DNA from: Lachnospiraceae bacterium
GTDB lineage: Bacteria > Bacillota > Clostridia > Lachnospirales > Lachnospiraceae
Direction: 5' to 3'
DNA length: 64,000 bases
Assembly: GCA_910575105.1 (NCBI GenBank)
Contig: CAJTDK010000003.1
Location: 186,001 to 250,000 of the forward strand
In this document: positions 47,987 through 53,540 of the stretch, piece by piece
How positions within the stretch are numbered: the stretch's first letter is position 1
How the letters are laid out: each line of letters starts with the position of its first letter
The notes under the pieces: generated by a model
The model's input: only the letters and a program-made list of their open reading frames with translations
Database searches by the model: none
What the model was told of the DNA's origin: nothing
Position numbers and translations under genes: made by a program

Positions 47987-49363
47987 ATGAAACATTTTAC
48001 TGATACAAAGAGAGATTTCGGACAGGGGAGTGTGGCGGCCAATATCCTGCGCCTGGCGATTCCCATGACGCTGGCGCAGCTGATCAATGTGCTTTACAAT
48101 GTGGTGGACCGCGCCTACATCGGCCATATTCCAGGTACCTCCACGGACGCTCTGACCGGCATCGGCCTGACACTGCCGGTCATTACGGTCATCATGGCAT
48201 TTGCCAATCTGTTCGGCATGGGCGGCGCCCCTTTATTTTCCATCGCAAGAGGCGCTAACGAACCCAAAAAAGCGGAAAGGATCATGGGAAATTCCTTTTC
48301 CATGCTGCTCATCTCCGGTACCGCCCTGTCTGCTGCCTGCTGCCTGTTCCGAAAACCTCTTTTATACCTGTTTGGGGCAAGCGATATTACATACCCCTAT
48401 GCGGACGCCTATGTCACACTCTACCTTCTCGGCACTCTGTTTGTCATGATCAGCCTTGGCATGAACAACTTTATCAATGCACAGGGATTCGGCGTCACCG
48501 GGATGCTCACTGTCTCCATTGGGGCTATGCTTAATCTCCTGCTGGACCCGCTCTTTATCTTCTCCTTTCACATGGGCGTGCGGGGCGCGGCTCTGGCAAC
48601 GATCATCTCACAGGGAATCTCTGCCCTGTGGGTGCTCCGTTTCCTTACAGGGCCAAGGGCGCCAATCAGGCTGACCGCAAGGAGTATGGCGCCCTGTCTT
48701 CCCCTGATAAAAGAAATAACGGCTCTTGGCCTGTCCGGCTTTGTCATGGCCGTCACTAATGGCTCTGTCCAGATTATTTGCAACGCCACGCTCCAGCGCT
48801 ATGGCGGCGACCTCTATGTCGGGATCATGACGGTCATCAATTCTGTCCGCGAAGTCGTCACTATCCCGGTGACCGGGCTTTCCAACGGCGCGCAGCCTGT
48901 TATGAGCTTTAATTACGGAGCGAAAAAATATGGCCGGGTGAAGTCAGCCATAAAGCTGACCACTATATTCTCCATTGTATTTACCTTTGTGATGTGGGCG
49001 CTCATCTTTTTCTTTCCGCAGCTTTTCATCCGGCCTTTCAGCAGCGGGAAGGAGCTTTTGCGGGAGGGTGTCCCCGCCATGCACCTGTACTTTTTCGGGA
49101 TCTTCCTGATGGCGCTGCAGTTCTCCGGGCAGTCTGCATTTGTAGCCCTGGGAAAATCAAGGCAGGCGGTATTTTTCTCCCTGCTGCGCAAGGCTGTCAT
49201 CGTGATCCCGCTTACCCTCTGCCTTCCTGCCGTCGGCAATTTGGGCACTGACGGAGTATTTTTAGCGGAGCCCATCTCCAACCTTATCGGCGGCACCGCA
49301 TGCTTTACCACCATGATGATAACGGTATGGCGGCGGCTGGGAGATGAAACGAATAAGCTGTAA
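47987..49363 (+). CDS. MATE family efflux transporter
   Basis: 458 residues with 12 membrane helices in two homologous halves (LRLAIPMTLAQLINVLYNVVDRAYIG in two parts at the start; IKEITALGLSGFVMAVTNGSVQ in the second half). It would export drugs or metabolites using a Na+ or H+ gradient. It lies between the divergent spmB and the co-oriented spmA. Its stop codon is 46 bases before the spmA start, so they may be co-transcribed. The ribosome site is weak. No specific substrate can be assigned. Confidence 0.92.
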   Translation: MKHFTDTKRDFGQGSVAANILRLAIPMTLAQLINVLYNVVDRAYIGHIPGTSTDALTGIGLTLPVITVIMAFANLFGMGGAPLFSIARGANEPKKAERIMGNSFSMLLISGTALSAACCLFRKPLLYLFGASDITYPYADAYVTLYLLGTLFVMISLGMNNFINAQGFGVTGMLTVSIGAMLNLLLDPLFIFSFHMGVRGAALATIISQGISALWVLRFLTGPRAPIRLTARSMAPCLPLIKEITALGLSGFVMAVTNGSVQIICNATLQRYGGDLYVGIMTVINSVREVVTIPVTGLSNGAQPVMSFNYGAKKYGRVKSAIKLTTIFSIVFTFVMWALIFFFPQLFIRPFSSGKELLREGVPAMHLYFFGIFLMALQFSGQSAFVALGKSRQAVFFSLLRKAVIVIPLTLCLPAVGNLGTDGVFLAEPISNLIGGTACFTTMMITVWRRLGDETNKL

Positions 49364-49409
49364 GCCGCCTGCATATGTTAATCTAAAGGAGCTTTACAAA
49401 GGGAAACTT

Positions 49410-50027
49410 ATGCTGAACTATCTATGGGCGGGAATGATACTCGTCGGAATCATATTCGCGGCATTCACCGGACGGATGCCGGATATCACCAATGCCGCGC
49501 TGGACTCCTCGAAGGAGGCGGTGGCTTTATGTATTACCATGATGGGAGTGATGTCGTTTTGGGTCGGGCTCATGGAAATCGCGGCAAATGCGGGGATCAT
49601 CGAGAGCGCCTCAAAAAAGATCCGCCCTCTGATCCGTTTTCTCTTTCCGAACCTTCCCTGCGGGCATTCGGCGGAGGAGCATATCACGACGAATATCATC
49701 GCCAATGTACTGGGGCTTGGATGGGCAGCGACACCTGCGGGATTACGGGCGATGGAGGAACTTTCTAAGCTGGAAGAGGACAGGAGACATGGCAGACTTC
49801 CGGGACCGGTGAGGAAGAAAGGAATTGCCAGTAATGAGATGTGTACATTTTTGATTATCAATATTTCCTCCTTACAGTTGATTCCAGTGAATGTAATCGC
49901 GTATCGGAGTCAGTACGGGAGCGTGAACCCGACGGCGATCGTGGGGCCGGGGATCGTGGCTACGGCGGTGAGTACGATTGTGGCAGTTTTATATTGCAAA
50001 ATGATGGATGGGAAGCGGAGAGTGTAG
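49410..50027 (+). CDS. spmA: Spore maturation protein A
   Basis: 205 residues. Membrane helices and family segments are LWAGMILVGIIFAAFTGRM, CITMMGVMSFWVGLMEIAANAG (two pieces), HITTNIIANVLGLGWAATPAGL and GPGIVATAVSTIVAVLYC. It functions with SpmB in spore dehydration. The ATG at 49410 follows AAAGGG; an upstream ATG inside the MATE gene gives a non-family extension. The last ~120 bases occur a second time, diverged, at 52208-52327, beyond a two-gene insertion. The gene itself is complete and keeps its own terminator. Confidence 0.93.
   Translation: MLNYLWAGMILVGIIFAAFTGRMPDITNAALDSSKEAVALCITMMGVMSFWVGLMEIAANAGIIESASKKIRPLIRFLFPNLPCGHSAEEHITTNIIANVLGLGWAATPAGLRAMEELSKLEEDRRHGRLPGPVRKKGIASNEMCTFLIINISSLQLIPVNVIAYRSQYGSVNPTAIVGPGIVATAVSTIVAVLYCKMMDGKRRV
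49905..50023 (+). repeat. Direct repeat copy 1: 3' end of spmA
   Basis: This segment, which codes for the last ~39 residues of SpmA, is repeated in the same orientation at 52208-52327. By eye about 15 of ~119 bases differ, and nearly all changes are silent or conservative (for example PTAIVG against PAAVVG). Confidence 0.9.
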
Positions 50028-50041
50028 CGCTCTCCGTTTTT
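50016..50041 (+). terminator. Terminator of spmA, overlapping the stop codon
   Basis: CGGAGAG (50016-50022) pairs with CTCTCCG (50030-50036), and TTTTTG follows. The TAG stop codon lies in the loop. Confidence 0.8.
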
Positions 50042-50160
50042 GTAATAAGAATGAGTTGTTACGTATAAAACTGATAAAAATGTGTTAAATCGGATAAAAA
50101 GGGTTTAAATATAGTATATAAGTAGTATAATAAATAAAAAGGAAAAAGGAGAGGCTGATA

Positions 50161-51354
50161 ATGGGATTAAAGGCGGAAGATGTGTTCAGACCAGGGGCAT
50201 TTCCTGAATATACTTATATATCACGTAAATCTACGGTTTCAGATCTGCCATATGAATTTCGTTTAATGCAGGCAATAAAGGTGTCCGGTTTTTTGACTTC
50301 TTTGGTAGGCCCTTCTAAGATGGGAAAAACGATTCTGTGCGAAAAGGTTATAGGATTTGAAAAGATTGTGGAAGTCTCAGGAGCAGATTTTAGTTTAGAG
50401 ATAGATTTTTGGAAAGTGGTTGCCGCAAAAGTTGGTTTGGCTTATGAGGGAGAGTTTTCTTCAGAGAAAATGATTGCTGATACCAGAGATAAATATTCGA
50501 AAAAAGAAACCTATTCTTTGACAAAAGATAAAATTATAGAATACTACAAAAAAGAAAATTTGGTTTTGGTTATCGATGATTTCCATTACGCGCCGGAAGA
50601 GAAACGGATGCAGATTGCACAGCAGCTGAAAGATGCAATCCGAAGAGGATTTAAGGCAATTGTTGTTTCTTTGCCCCACAGGGCAGATGAAGCAATCCGC
50701 AGGAACGCAGACCTTTCAGGACGATTAAGCATGATCAATATGGAATCATGGGAAGTAAATGATCTAAAGGAAATTGCAAAAATAGGATTTAAAAAATTGG
50801 GTGTACAGATTGAAGAAGATGTTGCAACGCAGATTGCGATAGAAAGTTTATCTTCTCCGCAGTTGATGCAGTACATCTGCTTAAATATCTGTACGATTTT
50901 GGAAATGTCAGGTAGAGATGATTGGTGTGTAAAACCGGAAATTTTGAAAATTGCATATCGATATACAACTGCAAATTTTGAATATGGTGATGTGGTATCC
51001 CTGATGCAAAAGGGGCCAAACATGAGAGGAAAAAGCAGAAACAGATTTCGAGCAGATAATGGGAAGGATTATGATATTTATGAATTGATTGTAAAATCCA
51101 TTGCAGAAAATCCACCTATTATGAAATTGGAATTTGAGGATGTTAAAGAGCGTATTTATTGTTTGATTGCTGATGATTGTAAAAAACCTACTCCGCAAGC
51201 TATAAAAGAAAGTTTGGTTAAGCTACAGGAATTATTGGATGGCCGGGAGGATATATTCAAAGTTCTTGATTGGAAGGAAGGAGTATTGTATATTTTAGAC
51301 CCTTTATTTTTGTTCTATTTACGCTGGGGAGGGGGCGGAAATAAAGATGTTTAG
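50161..51354 (+). CDS. AAA/STAND-like ATPase of a two-gene cassette
   Basis: 397 residues. Walker A is GPSKMGKT (50-57) and Walker B VLVIDDFHY (about 135-143). The later segments VVSLPHRADEAIRR and SGRLSMINMESW look like the sensor and lid region of Orc1/STAND-type ATPases. A C-terminal winged-helix-like region (about 305-390) ends ILDPLFLFYLRW, as in archaeal-type ATPases linked to defence nucleases. There is no membrane helix. It is preceded by AAAAAGGAG and an A+T-rich promoter region, and overlaps the nuclease gene by eight bases. Base use is clearly richer in A+T than the neighbours, a sign of transfer. I infer a sensor/switch ATPase controlling the nuclease; the family name is not certain. 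Confidence 0.85.
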   Translation: MGLKAEDVFRPGAFPEYTYISRKSTVSDLPYEFRLMQAIKVSGFLTSLVGPSKMGKTILCEKVIGFEKIVEVSGADFSLEIDFWKVVAAKVGLAYEGEFSSEKMIADTRDKYSKKETYSLTKDKIIEYYKKENLVLVIDDFHYAPEEKRMQIAQQLKDAIRRGFKAIVVSLPHRADEAIRRNADLSGRLSMINMESWEVNDLKEIAKIGFKKLGVQIEEDVATQIAIESLSSPQLMQYICLNICTILEMSGRDDWCVKPEILKIAYRYTTANFEYGDVVSLMQKGPNMRGKSRNRFRADNGKDYDIYELIVKSIAENPPIMKLEFEDVKERIYCLIADDCKKPTPQAIKESLVKLQELLDGREDIFKVLDWKEGVLYILDPLFLFYLRWGGGGNKDV

Positions 51355-52078
51355 TAATTCCGGTAGTATACAACAAGCTATGGAAAGATTGGTGTGCGCA
51401 AAGGACAGTCAGTCATTTCAAGCCGCGACAAGCGCTTTAAGAGAGCAGATGAAAAGAACAGGAATGGATTCGCAATATTTAATTGATTTGGAAAGAAGGG
51501 CCTACTATCTCCCAAATGAATATTCTGATAAAGATACAAAAGAAAAGATGCTTGAAGCCAAAAAGAGAGTAATAGAGTACATGAATGAGATTATGAATGT
51601 AAATGAAAACGGCAGATTGCTTTTGGATGTACTGGAAAACTTTTATCTTTTTTTGGAAAATCTTTTCGAAAGGAGACTTCATAAAAAAGGAGGGATTCAA
51701 AAAGAGCAGTTAGAAGGATTAAGAATAAAAAATGAGTACGATGTCCAACATTTGTTGTATGCATATCTTAAACCACTCTATCCAATGGCAAGAGCAGAGG
51801 TAAATGAGGATACGGGATATGGTACAGTCAGGTCGGATATTTTGTTGGATTCGGAAAATACTATTGAAGTAAAGTGCACGAGAAAAGGAATGGTATTGAA
51901 GAAGCTGGTCGAGGAAATAGAAGCGGATATGGTACATTATAGCGCAAAAAATATTTATTTTTTCATATATGATAAAGAAAAATTGATTGATAACCCTTGT
52001 AATTTTAAGAGCATTTATGAAGAAAAGATGAAGGACAAGCATATTTATATTATTATTCACCAACCTAAGATATTATAA
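51347..52078 (+). CDS. DpnII/MboI-like PD-(D/E)XK nuclease of the cassette
   Basis: 243 residues. The N-terminal ~115 residues are helical and charged, without a match that I know. The C-terminal part (about 125-240) reads RIKNEYDVQHLLYAYLKPLYP, then VRSDILLD and TIEVKCTRKGMVLKKLVEEI, then FFIYDKEKLIDNP. This fits the PD-(D/E)XK core, with Asp164 and Glu174-x-Lys176 as the metal site, in the arrangement of the REase_DpnII-MboI family. There is no methyltransferase next to it, so it is not a classical restriction enzyme pair. Its start lies within the end of the ATPase gene (eight-base overlap), which points to coupled translation and a joint function. Confidence 0.85.
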   Translation: MFSNSGSIQQAMERLVCAKDSQSFQAATSALREQMKRTGMDSQYLIDLERRAYYLPNEYSDKDTKEKMLEAKKRVIEYMNEIMNVNENGRLLLDVLENFYLFLENLFERRLHKKGGIQKEQLEGLRIKNEYDVQHLLYAYLKPLYPMARAEVNEDTGYGTVRSDILLDSENTIEVKCTRKGMVLKKLVEEIEADMVHYSAKNIYFFIYDKEKLIDNPCNFKSIYEEKMKDKHIYIIIHQPKIL

Positions 52079-52207
52079 ATTTCGATACTTAGTATCTACA
52101 AAAGATGAATCGCTTCTTCGTGAAGAGCCGGAATGCTGTTATGATAATGGAAACTAATTAGACAAATAGGAGAACAATTTTTTAGTCTTAGCTTGACACA
52201 ACCGTTT

Positions 52208-52345
52208 CGAAGCCAGTACGGGAGCGTGAACCCGGCAGCGGTCGTGGGGCCGGGGATTGTGGCTACGGCGGTGAGCACGATTGTGGCAGTGATATATTGT
52301 AAGATGATGGATGGGAAGCGGAGGATATAACCTCTTCCGCTTTTT
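52208..52345 (+). repeat. Direct repeat copy 2: diverged spmA 3' end with its own stop and terminator
   Basis: The copy codes in frame for SQYGSVNPAAVVGPG and onward to YCKMMDGKRRI, then TAA. A terminator follows in which GCGG-AGG pairs with CCT-CTT-CCGC before TTTTT (about 52315-52345). Because the frame and hairpin are kept although bases differ, it looks like the tail of another spmA allele and not recent slippage. It marks the right end of the ATPase/nuclease insertion. The 129 bases between the nuclease stop and this copy hold no supported gene. Confidence 0.88.
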
Positions 52346-52449
52346 AACATTTCTTTAAAAAGCTATTTGAATAATGTGATTCCAATTGTATAAAAAGGGA
52401 AAAAGGGGTATTATAGAGAACATATAAAATGCGTATGTGGGTGATGCAT

Positions 52450-52745
52450 ATGTATAGGGAAGCAATAAAACAGTTAGAATTATGGAAATATTGAGTCAAC
52501 TGAAAACCATTGATACTACGAGGGGCACGACAGGTAGGAAAACATGGATTATGAAAGAGTTTGGTAAGAAATATTATGAAATAAGCGCTTATATCAGTAT
52601 GGATGGGAATGAGAGGATGAAGGAGATTTTCGGGAAGCGTTTGATATTAACAGAATTATCGAAATATTGGTAATTGAAGTGGGCTTTAAAATTGATCCTG
52701 AGAAGACACTTATTATTTTTGATGAAGTGCAGGAAATGTCTGCCG
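52450..52745 (+). pseudogene. Broken AAA ATPase gene (DUF4143/AAA_14 type)
   Basis: Starting from ATG at 52450, the translation reads MYREAIKQLELWKY, then two in-frame stops, then KPLILRGARQVGKTWIMK with a clear Walker A, and YISMDGNERMKEIF. After a frameshift near 52630 it continues DINRIIEILVIEVGFKIDP and Walker B TLIIFDEVQEM. The rest of the gene is missing. The pieces match the N-terminal half of the DUF4143 ATPase family, common in gut Firmicutes. It is dead by stops, shift and truncation. Confidence 0.85.
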
Positions 52746-52764
52746 TACCCATTTTAAACTTGGA

Positions 52765-53127
52765 AGGGACTGGCAACACACTGGATGTCTCCAATGAATT
52801 CCAATACAGCCAGAAGCACGAGAAAGCTCTTAAGCGCCTGAAGAACTTCCGGTTACTGGACGATGATTTTTGCACAAAAGTGTTTGAAGATATTGAACGT
52901 GTGGAGCTGTTACTGCGTATCATATTAGAGAAAGATAATCTGAAAGTAACCGAAGTACATTCCCAATATAATATAAAGAATCTCCAGGGGCGCTCAGCAA
53001 GGCTCGATATATTTGCCATTAATGATACCGGAGCGGAGCTGAATGTGGAAGTACAAAAAAGCGACAAGGGCGCAGCCCCAAGACGGGCGAGATACCATTC
53101 CAGCCTGATTGACGCAAACATCACAGA
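52765..53127 (+). pseudogene. Fragment of an Rpn/PDDEXK_2 family nuclease gene
   Basis: In the frame that continues from the ATPase remnant, residues read HEKALKRLKNFRLLDDDFC, VELLLRIILEKDNLKV, GRSARLDIFAINDTGAELNVEVQ and RRARYHSSLIDAN. This is the N-terminal core of the PD-(D/E)XK nuclease/transposase family (Rpn-like), with Asp in RLDIF and E-x-Q in NVEVQ. Both ends are joined to unrelated fragments, so the ORF of 187 codons starting at 52667 is a chimera of remnants and not a gene. Confidence 0.8.
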
Positions 53128-53414
53128 ACCTGGTATACGTCAAACCCAGCAAATGCACTCCCGAAACTGCCATAAAATATATCGGCCGATATCTTGGACG
53201 TCCTGTCATTGCCACCTCCAGGACCGATAAATATGATGGAGACTTTGTTACTTTCCATTACAACCGCCATGAAGACGATGCATATGTGGAAGGAACCATT
53301 CCAGTTATGGAATTCATTGAACGCCTCATCCAGCACATACCGCAAAAGCATTACAAAATGATCCGCCATGCCCATATGTTCGATAAATTTCTGTTTATTT
53401 TTCCTATAAAGTAA
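53128..53414 (+). pseudogene. 3' fragment of an IS91-type transposase gene
   Basis: The frame reads YVKPSKCTPETAIKYIGRYLGR, FVTFHYNRHEDDAYVEGTIPVMEFIE and LIQHIPQKHYKMIRHAHMF. This matches my memory of the C-terminal part of Y2-type (IS91/IS801) transposases. The N-terminal zinc and catalytic parts are missing, and the 5' end is fused to the nuclease remnant. It is evidence of past mobile-element activity in this gap. Confidence 0.75.
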
Positions 53415-53418
53415 ATAA

Positions 53419-53460
53419 ATGGACGGAAAACAGAGAGCGTAAAAACCTCTCTGTTTTTTT
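53419..53460 (+). terminator. Terminator, possibly a third vestige of the spmA tail
   Basis: ACAGAGAG (53430-53437) pairs with CTCTCTGT (53447-53454), followed by seven Ts. Just before it ATGGACGGAAAACAG and a TAA (53440-53442) would encode MDGKQRA and stop, close to the MDGKRRV end of SpmA, with the stop codon in the loop as in copy 1. The match is short and may be chance. Confidence 0.55.
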
Positions 53461-53540
53461 ATTTCCTATCTATAACATTTGCTGAGAACGTGGTATAATT
53501 TATTATATGTAACAAAAATCACAATAGGATGGAGAGCGAT

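Follow-up and report, generated by a model that had tools for sequence, protein, structure and literature searches.

A probable two-gene anti-phage system of an ATPase and a DpnII/MboI-like nuclease, carried behind spmA in Lachnospiraceae

Introduction

The nearest studied relative of the nuclease reported here is EcbAgaN, the suicide DNase of the long-B Argonaute system EcBPAN, in which an RNA-guided Argonaute lacking catalytic activity serves as the sensor (PMC10620215). According to the same source, residues D298, E309, and K311 of EcbAgaN are essential. The enzyme cleaves DNA non-specifically; by itself it does almost no harm, whereas triggering of the Argonaute sensor leads to genome degradation and killing. 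A related nuclease, that of SPARDA, is activated by multimerisation (PMC12205087). In this study, a stretch of 64,000 nucleotides (nt) from a Lachnospiraceae bacterium (GCA_910575105.1, contig CAJTDK010000003.1, positions 186,001 to 250,000 of the forward strand; hereafter, the window) was analysed, in which a gene for such a nuclease follows the gene for an ATPase. This gene pair probably constitutes an anti-phage system in which a sensor is combined with a suicide nuclease; it forms a small exchangeable cassette located behind a gene that we take to be spmA, its Pfam match being weak.

Results and Discussion

Predicted activities of the two proteins

A preliminary description of the window had proposed that two overlapping, A+T-rich genes at 50161–52078 form a defence module. 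Both genes proved to be real; they overlap by 8 nt, and the G+C content of their block amounts to 35–37% versus about 50% in the surrounding chromosome (Table 1). The downstream gene encodes a nuclease of exactly the family that had been predicted, PF18742 (DpnII-MboI), matched at 7.1e-32 with 110.5 bits over 146 residues against a gathering cut-off of 27. The three residues named beforehand as catalytic were found to be conserved among 42 aligned nucleases (E174 and K176 invariant, D164 in at least 90%), leaving the D...ExK active site intact. The AlphaFold2 model of the protein (mean predicted local distance difference test score, pLDDT, 87.7) displays the expected helical N-terminal part and a PD-(D/E)XK core.

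When the nuclease sequence profile was compared with solved structures, EcbAgaN was the sole convincing relative (5.6e-13). D164, E174, and K176 align with D298, E309, and K311 of EcbAgaN, as counted along the chain, and the motifs NEYxVQ, RxD, and ExK align as well. Moreover, the Argonaute-associated Aga_Helical-REase profile of PADLOC recognises the nuclease at 3.9e-14. A second sequence match in the PDB, to a tumour protein homologue (3.3e-4, over the helical part), was judged to be due to chance. Foldseek returned nothing for the nuclease model at E 0.001, and VIA-align gave no strong match (1y88, Z 9.3; the CRISPR nuclease Can2, 8.4; BglII, 7.8; Card1, 7.6). Since VIA-align values of 7–9 may mean merely a common arrangement, the argument on the nuclease is carried by the sequence match with EcbAgaN.

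The upstream gene encodes a protein with Walker A and B motifs, in which G50, K53, G55, K56, T57, L136, D139, and D140 are invariant among 34 aligned ATPases. It matches the candidate family PDC-S59 of PADLOC-DB 2023 (2.7e-20, 70.8 bits, residues 124–388; the library gives no cut-off), a modest match that leaves the Walker A region outside. All Pfam matches (AAA_22, AAA_16, NB-ARC, and TniB) are below threshold, TniB reaching 21.0 bits with a cut-off of 22.4. In a fold comparison, the AlphaFold2 model (mean pLDDT 87.7) resembled the Pyrococcus abyssi ATPase 2qen (Z 18.5, 308 residues, root-mean-square deviation (rmsd) 5.4), Cdc6/Orc1 2qby (Z 17.1, 311 residues, rmsd 7.6), SSO1545 2fna (Z 16.2, 302 residues, rmsd 5.9), and TnsC 8fcu (Z 14.2, 248 residues, rmsd 3.8). 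The alignment with 2qen reaches residue 389 and that with Cdc6/Orc1 residue 394, which fits the winged-helix-like C-terminal end and the AAA/STAND-like nature suggested earlier. Judged by its model, the ATPase is thus a P-loop protein with an origin recognition complex (ORC)/archaeal-ATPase-like fold. A housekeeping ATPase was rejected, RuvB-type profiles matching with 13 bits against cut-offs of 282–299.

Conservation of the pair

For evaluating the prevalence of the pair, the genome_contigs collection was scanned with the ATPase alignment, and the nuclease was sought downstream with an own-built profile. A nuclease match followed the ATPase in 78 of the 80 loci obtained, 58 being intact and 20 broken or partial, including L065 and L094 with nuclease fragments 2–2.6 kb away; one of the two remaining loci ends at a contig end. 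The ATPase open reading frame (ORF) was of full length in 79 of the 80 loci, and the nuclease was accordingly lost more often than the ATPase among these ATPase-found loci. In a survey of 397 genomes sampled from the larger family, ATPase matches were detected in 16 and nuclease matches in 14 genomes (E 0.001); twelve of the ATPase loci were below 1e-80, the adjacent nuclease being intact in nine, broken in two, and missing in one that is itself frameshifted.

The conserved pairing expected in the preliminary description was also evident from phylogeny. In the ATPase tree (n=98; L001–L005, representing the own copy, copies of genome_contigs loci, and weak matches, the cut loci L013 and L061, and the duplicates L096 and L105 were omitted), the 82 paired ATPases formed a single clade (100/97) with 16 solo ATPases outside, several of the latter being long-branched and placed with a warning from the tree program. 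ATPase and nuclease distances were correlated across the 58 intact pairs (r 0.946; 0 of 999 permutations as high), with loci lacking a nuclease of at least 225 amino acids (aa) and L080, featuring an internal deletion, left aside. The ratios of non-synonymous to synonymous substitution (dN/dS) for both genes ranged between 0.09 and 0.18 in three to six pairs of close copies, indicating that both are under purifying selection.

Solo PDC-S59-like ATPases without an added domain were found on plasmids and viral contigs (L007–L011, L014, L015, and L097–L104), some of them beside type I restriction genes. Furthermore, a frameshifted, nuclease-less PDC-S59 ATPase lies between Wadjet-type JetD/SMC-like genes and an AAA_15 ATPase gene (L138, 1713–9621, genome G652).

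Relatives of the nuclease also occur without this ATPase, adjoining a YhcG/DUF1016 nuclease (L133, 5200–7200), a ResIII helicase and an AlbA_2 protein (L134, 2883–6508), or an Eco57I-type methylase (L135, 1969–6054), and these three loci are possibly further systems with the same effector. Because of these other partners, the nuclease resembles a portable effector for which the ATPase would act as the sensor.

The slot behind spmA

In the window, a direct repeat of 142 nt, corresponding to the spmA 3′ end, lies on either side of the unit; its copies are 85% identical, and the preliminary description had missed this feature. The sister genome G777 of the same genus joins window position 50040 to 53437 with 11 nt in between and thus represents the empty site; the entire 3.4 kb, including a decayed second cassette, can therefore be regarded as the insert. 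spmA was present in all six genomes of the genus. In one of them (G445), it is located at a contig end, where slot occupancy cannot be judged; among the other five, the slot was occupied in four (the window, G746, G776, and G778) and empty in G777. It contained the same pair with a broken nuclease, followed by NsnABC, which we take to be of the Menshen type, in G746; a Menshen-like module in G776; and a diverged, 43% identical PDC-S59 ATPase with a broken nuclease in G778 (L125, 1770–3561), apparently an independent arrival at spmA. Additional cargo was observed in two further records: the pair is followed by HEC-02AB and an AbiLi-like ATPase gene in L017 and by a PD-T4-6-like kinase in L018, with spmA 3′ ends recurring between the modules. 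The pair is hence cargo of a defence hotspot, the same site harbouring other defence modules in relatives and being empty elsewhere.

The terminator hairpin of spmA sits in the partial spmA copy, and each arrayed cassette seems to gain a terminator from the repeat. The flanking ORFs of the pair are spmA and a decayed PDDEXK_2-like fragment; the remaining genes of the window are ordinary core genes by reading.

Table 1. Coordinates of the ATPase–nuclease unit and adjoining features in the window
Feature	Position	Strand	Basis
spmA (spore maturation protein A-like), host gene ahead of the unit	49344..50027	+	ORF; Gate domain PF07670 below its cut-off
Direct repeat copy 1, 142 nt, spmA 3′ end and terminator region	49900..50041	+	Repeat search, 85% identical to 52203–52344
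Promoter-like site before the ATPase gene	50104..50131	+	Consensus scan, 10/12 positions; such sites no commoner than in shuffles
ATPase gene, 397 aa, PDC-S59 family	50161..51354	+	ORF, PADLOC-DB profile, predicted fold
Walker A GPSKMGKT, residues 50–57	50308..50331	+	Translation and conservation
Walker B LVLVIDD, residues 134–140	50560..50580	+	Translation and conservation
Nuclease gene, 243 aa: helical N-terminal part and PF18742 domain, residues 94–239	51347..52078	+	ORF, Pfam, model
Catalytic D164 ... E174-x-K176	51836..51874	+	Conservation in 42 proteins; alignment with EcbAgaN
Cassette right-hand end, 29 nt, ATTTTTTAGTCTTAGCTTGACACAACCGT, common to cassettes with other cargo	52177..52205	+	Junction comparison
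Direct repeat copy 2, partial spmA 3′ end with terminator-like hairpin 52312–52346	52203..52344	+	Repeat search
Second, decayed cassette: PDDEXK_2-like fragment 52667–53230 and short ORF	52345..53436	+	Missing in G777 (empty site)
Ancestral chromosome resuming downstream of spmA; histidine-kinase-type gene then starts at 53529	53437..53528	+	G777 junction

Exchange between species and the shared cassette end

Eleven of the 80 loci were located behind spmA (L016–L018, L031, L032, L034, L047, L048, L051, L053, and L054). Since these loci occupy about five separate places in the ATPase tree, the pair must have reached the spmA site repeatedly. Synonymous divergence (dS) between the window and L016–L018 amounted to 0.09–0.13 for the ATPase and 0.06–0.08 for the nuclease (L017 and L018), compared with 0.99–2.09 for the adjacent spmA, which indicates that the pair was recently exchanged between species at this site. 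The left boundary of the exchanged block lies in the last codons of spmA, whereas the right one coincides with the shared end or is displaced beyond it by as much as about 30 nt. Given these boundaries and the finding that two spmA copies within one genome differ by 13–22%, neither a simple homologous-recombination model nor a phage-like attachment model fits fully.

In 11 of the 12 junctions compared (window, one; L016, two; L017, three; L018, two; L126, two; L054, one), the truncated spmA copy is directly preceded by CTTGACNCAA, L031 being the exception. The longer sequence TTTTTAGTCTTAGCTTGACACAACCGT is identical in eight of these 11 junctions despite different cargo, and the point in spmA to which the end is joined varies among about three codons. 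As a general mark of the pair, CTTGACNCAA was rejected, occurring within 600 bp downstream of L016, L017, and L018 only among the 80 loci. A 27-mer of the end was detected at three places in two of the 397 genomes sampled from the family, which both belong to the genus of the window (reversed control, 0), and was not found in the viral_contigs and plasmids collections; one 28-bp match in a phage record falls in the spmA part of the query. The second copy in the window's own genome (L131, contig C2 of G000, 547–1794) has a HIRAN/HipA-N gene as one neighbour and, as the other, a tyrosine integrase gene that is cut off at the junction; a DUF3173 gene adjoins. This copy may represent the origin or a remnant of the element that gave rise to the spmA slot.

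The pair was also found behind other genes, identified by eye as serA-like, dUTPase-like, and yajC-like. Flanking direct repeats of any kind were present in 17 of 78 testable loci, several of them generic. In L030 (5595–8404) and L036 (2490–4861), the 3′ end of an N-acetylmuramoyl-alanine amidase gene (107–110 bp) is duplicated around the pair in an orientation opposite to the spmA case, and may perhaps constitute a second slot. No general link to tRNA target sites was detected in the 35 loci scanned. An intact pair resides beside an antirepressor-like gene in a 113-kb Clostridioides phage record (L012, 5974–7973), where it is perhaps used against rival phages.

Function of the gene pair

The pair most likely acts against viruses. 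The ATPase would be kept inactive until it recognises a product of phage infection, whereupon it may bind ATP and change its assembly. This change could release or multimerise the PD-(D/E)XK nuclease, which would then cut DNA without sequence specificity, and the phage would be stopped by killing or stalling of the cell, i.e., by abortive infection. The suicide model is favoured because of the relationship to EcbAgaN and the decay of nuclease genes beside intact ATPases.

Several observations weigh against this interpretation. The contrast between intact ATPases and broken nucleases is biased, the loci having been found and ranked by the ATPase, and the 16 solo ATPases imply that the ATPase family also functions where this nuclease is lacking. 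PDC-S59 itself is only a PADLOC candidate, and the similarity to TniB makes a DNA-mobility role conceivable. Regarding the expected nearness to known defence genes, other modules do occur in the spmA slot, but elsewhere the immediate neighbours are mostly core genes, among which the pair is mostly single. The commonest Pfam families among the neighbours are ordinary, and about half a dozen defence families appeared at E 1e-20 (JetD, type III methylase, NsnA, HEC-02A, IetS, and SoFic), 143 of 333 neighbour clusters having been scanned without a matched control. The evidence for a defence island is thus local and tied to the spmA slot.

A defence of the restriction kind without suicide is the alternative that fares best, albeit an unlikely one. 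A Cdc6/TnsC-like, DNA-scanning AAA+ protein would mark foreign DNA by its structure or state and load the nuclease for selective cutting, following a McrBC- or Wadjet-like logic. After 2qen and 2fna, the best full-length fold neighbours of the ATPase are indeed DNA-binding AAA+ proteins (Cdc6/Orc1, TnsC, and RuvB), and the nuclease model resembles McrC and type II enzymes (Z about 7.6). As stated in the preliminary description, no cognate DNA methyltransferase gene is found among the ORFs flanking the pair, which does not qualify as a type II restriction–modification system; discrimination would therefore have to come from the ATPase. Speaking against selective cutting, EcbAgaN is non-specific, and the 20 nuclease genes decayed beside intact ATPases fit a costly suicide effector better.

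Considerably less probable is a mobility module, composed of a TniB/TnsC-like ATPase and a TnsA-like or homing-type nuclease and inserting itself into the 3′ ends of genes. The weak TniB match and the TnsC fold similarity point in this direction, as do the location of the pair beside many different genes, including spmA in several lineages, and the repeats around it at spmA and the amidase gene. However, the slot, the junction end, and the spmA repeats also frame cassettes lacking the pair (HEC-02AB, AbiLi-like, and kinase), so that the pair is cargo there and not the mover. A DDE transposase is absent from the unit, no further gene being located between the ATPase and nuclease genes and the repeats; repeats flank only a minority of the testable loci; and the CTTGACNCAA end is not enriched at other sites. 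Least credible of all is a toxin–antitoxin-like stabiliser of plasmids or islands, in which the ATPase would restrain the nuclease and loss of the unit would kill the cell: the translational overlap of the genes, their presence on plasmids and a phage–plasmid-like contig, and the persistence of the ATPase where the nuclease decays would suit it, but solo ATPases are common, an ORC-like ATPase is needless for an antitoxin, relatives of the nuclease have unrelated partners, and EcbAgaN alone is barely toxic (PMC10620215).

The sensor plus suicide-nuclease reading is therefore retained, and none of the outcomes named beforehand as speaking against a defence module occurred: no housekeeping-ATPase profile scored above its cut-off, no transposase was found in the pair, and the pairing was conserved. 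A wider proposal on the slot is put forward tentatively, as a possibility that is rather doubtful at present. The spmA site may be a recombinase-less cassette slot, both in the Lachnospiraceae genus studied here and in at least one further lineage, where the end is a variant one. Unrelated whole defence systems would be stacked there in tandem, with CTTGACNCAA terminating each of them together with a partial spmA 3′ end that supplies a terminator, and would be swapped between species at their ends, in the manner of an integron-style library without an integron; the pair would be a frequent cargo and a new class of ATPase-licensed suicide DNase.

Novelty and significance

The pair had been proposed as a candidate undescribed module. 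As a conserved two-gene system, it was not found in the literature searched, from which most subscription papers and bioRxiv were absent. With such coverage, where absence counts for little, nothing was found on the name PDC-S59, on PF18742 or DpnII-MboI, or on a Lachnospiraceae hotspot, and only unrelated papers on spmA as a defence hotspot. Its parts are of known kinds, namely a listed candidate ATPase and the DNase type of Argonaute systems, and PDC-S59 and the studied AgaN reduce the novelty accordingly. The most unexpected finding is the spmA slot, with its shared cassette end and with no recombinase among the cassettes read.

The combination of an ORC/STAND-like ATPase with the DNase type of long-B Argonaute systems points to this nuclease as a general suicide effector that has been adopted by different sensors. 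The PADLOC candidate PDC-S59 thereby gains a partner and testable catalytic residues. The spmA slot illustrates how gut bacteria swap complete defence systems, the boundaries being sharp and no recombinase being visible. If the enzyme or process underlying the shared end were found, it would reveal a new way in which immune genes are exchanged and a location in which further systems could be sought.

Comparison with known systems

The ATPase of the window shares the family profile of PDC-S59, which the same-slot ATPase in G778 also matches (8.3e-23). The candidate name suggests a single gene, the "S" presumably standing for "single", whereas a nuclease gene follows both here and in 78 of the 80 related loci. 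The ATPases 2qen and 2fna, which we take to belong to the MNS clade, and Cdc6/Orc1 are alike in fold over 302–311 residues (Z 16.2–18.5); however, their sequence identity to the ATPase is 12–14%, and they are not paired with such a nuclease.

EcbAgaN (PDB 23wq) has a homologous nuclease domain with aligned motifs and catalytic residues, but its N-terminal part is unmatched by sequence, and here the ATPase stands in place of the Argonaute sensor. With respect to BPAN, the AgaN-type nuclease domain is hence present and the Argonaute partner is not, the partner being the ATPase in the window as well as in 78 of the 80 loci. PF18742 restriction endonucleases of the DpnII-MboI type are strongly matched over the domain, but the enzyme described here has an ATPase partner and no cognate methyltransferase.

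TniB/TnsC of Tn7-like elements resemble the ATPase in their AAA+ fold (8fcu) and in the sub-threshold TniB match, whereas the pair has neither a DDE transposase nor Tn7-type ends. Phage 21 and e14 replace the icd 3′ end, and such attachment-site (att)-flanked insertions and defence hotspots are similar to the spmA slot in the duplicated gene 3′ end framing the insert and in the empty site in a relative. In contrast to them, the cassettes read behind spmA carry no recombinase, and several stand in tandem, each closed by the same short sequence.

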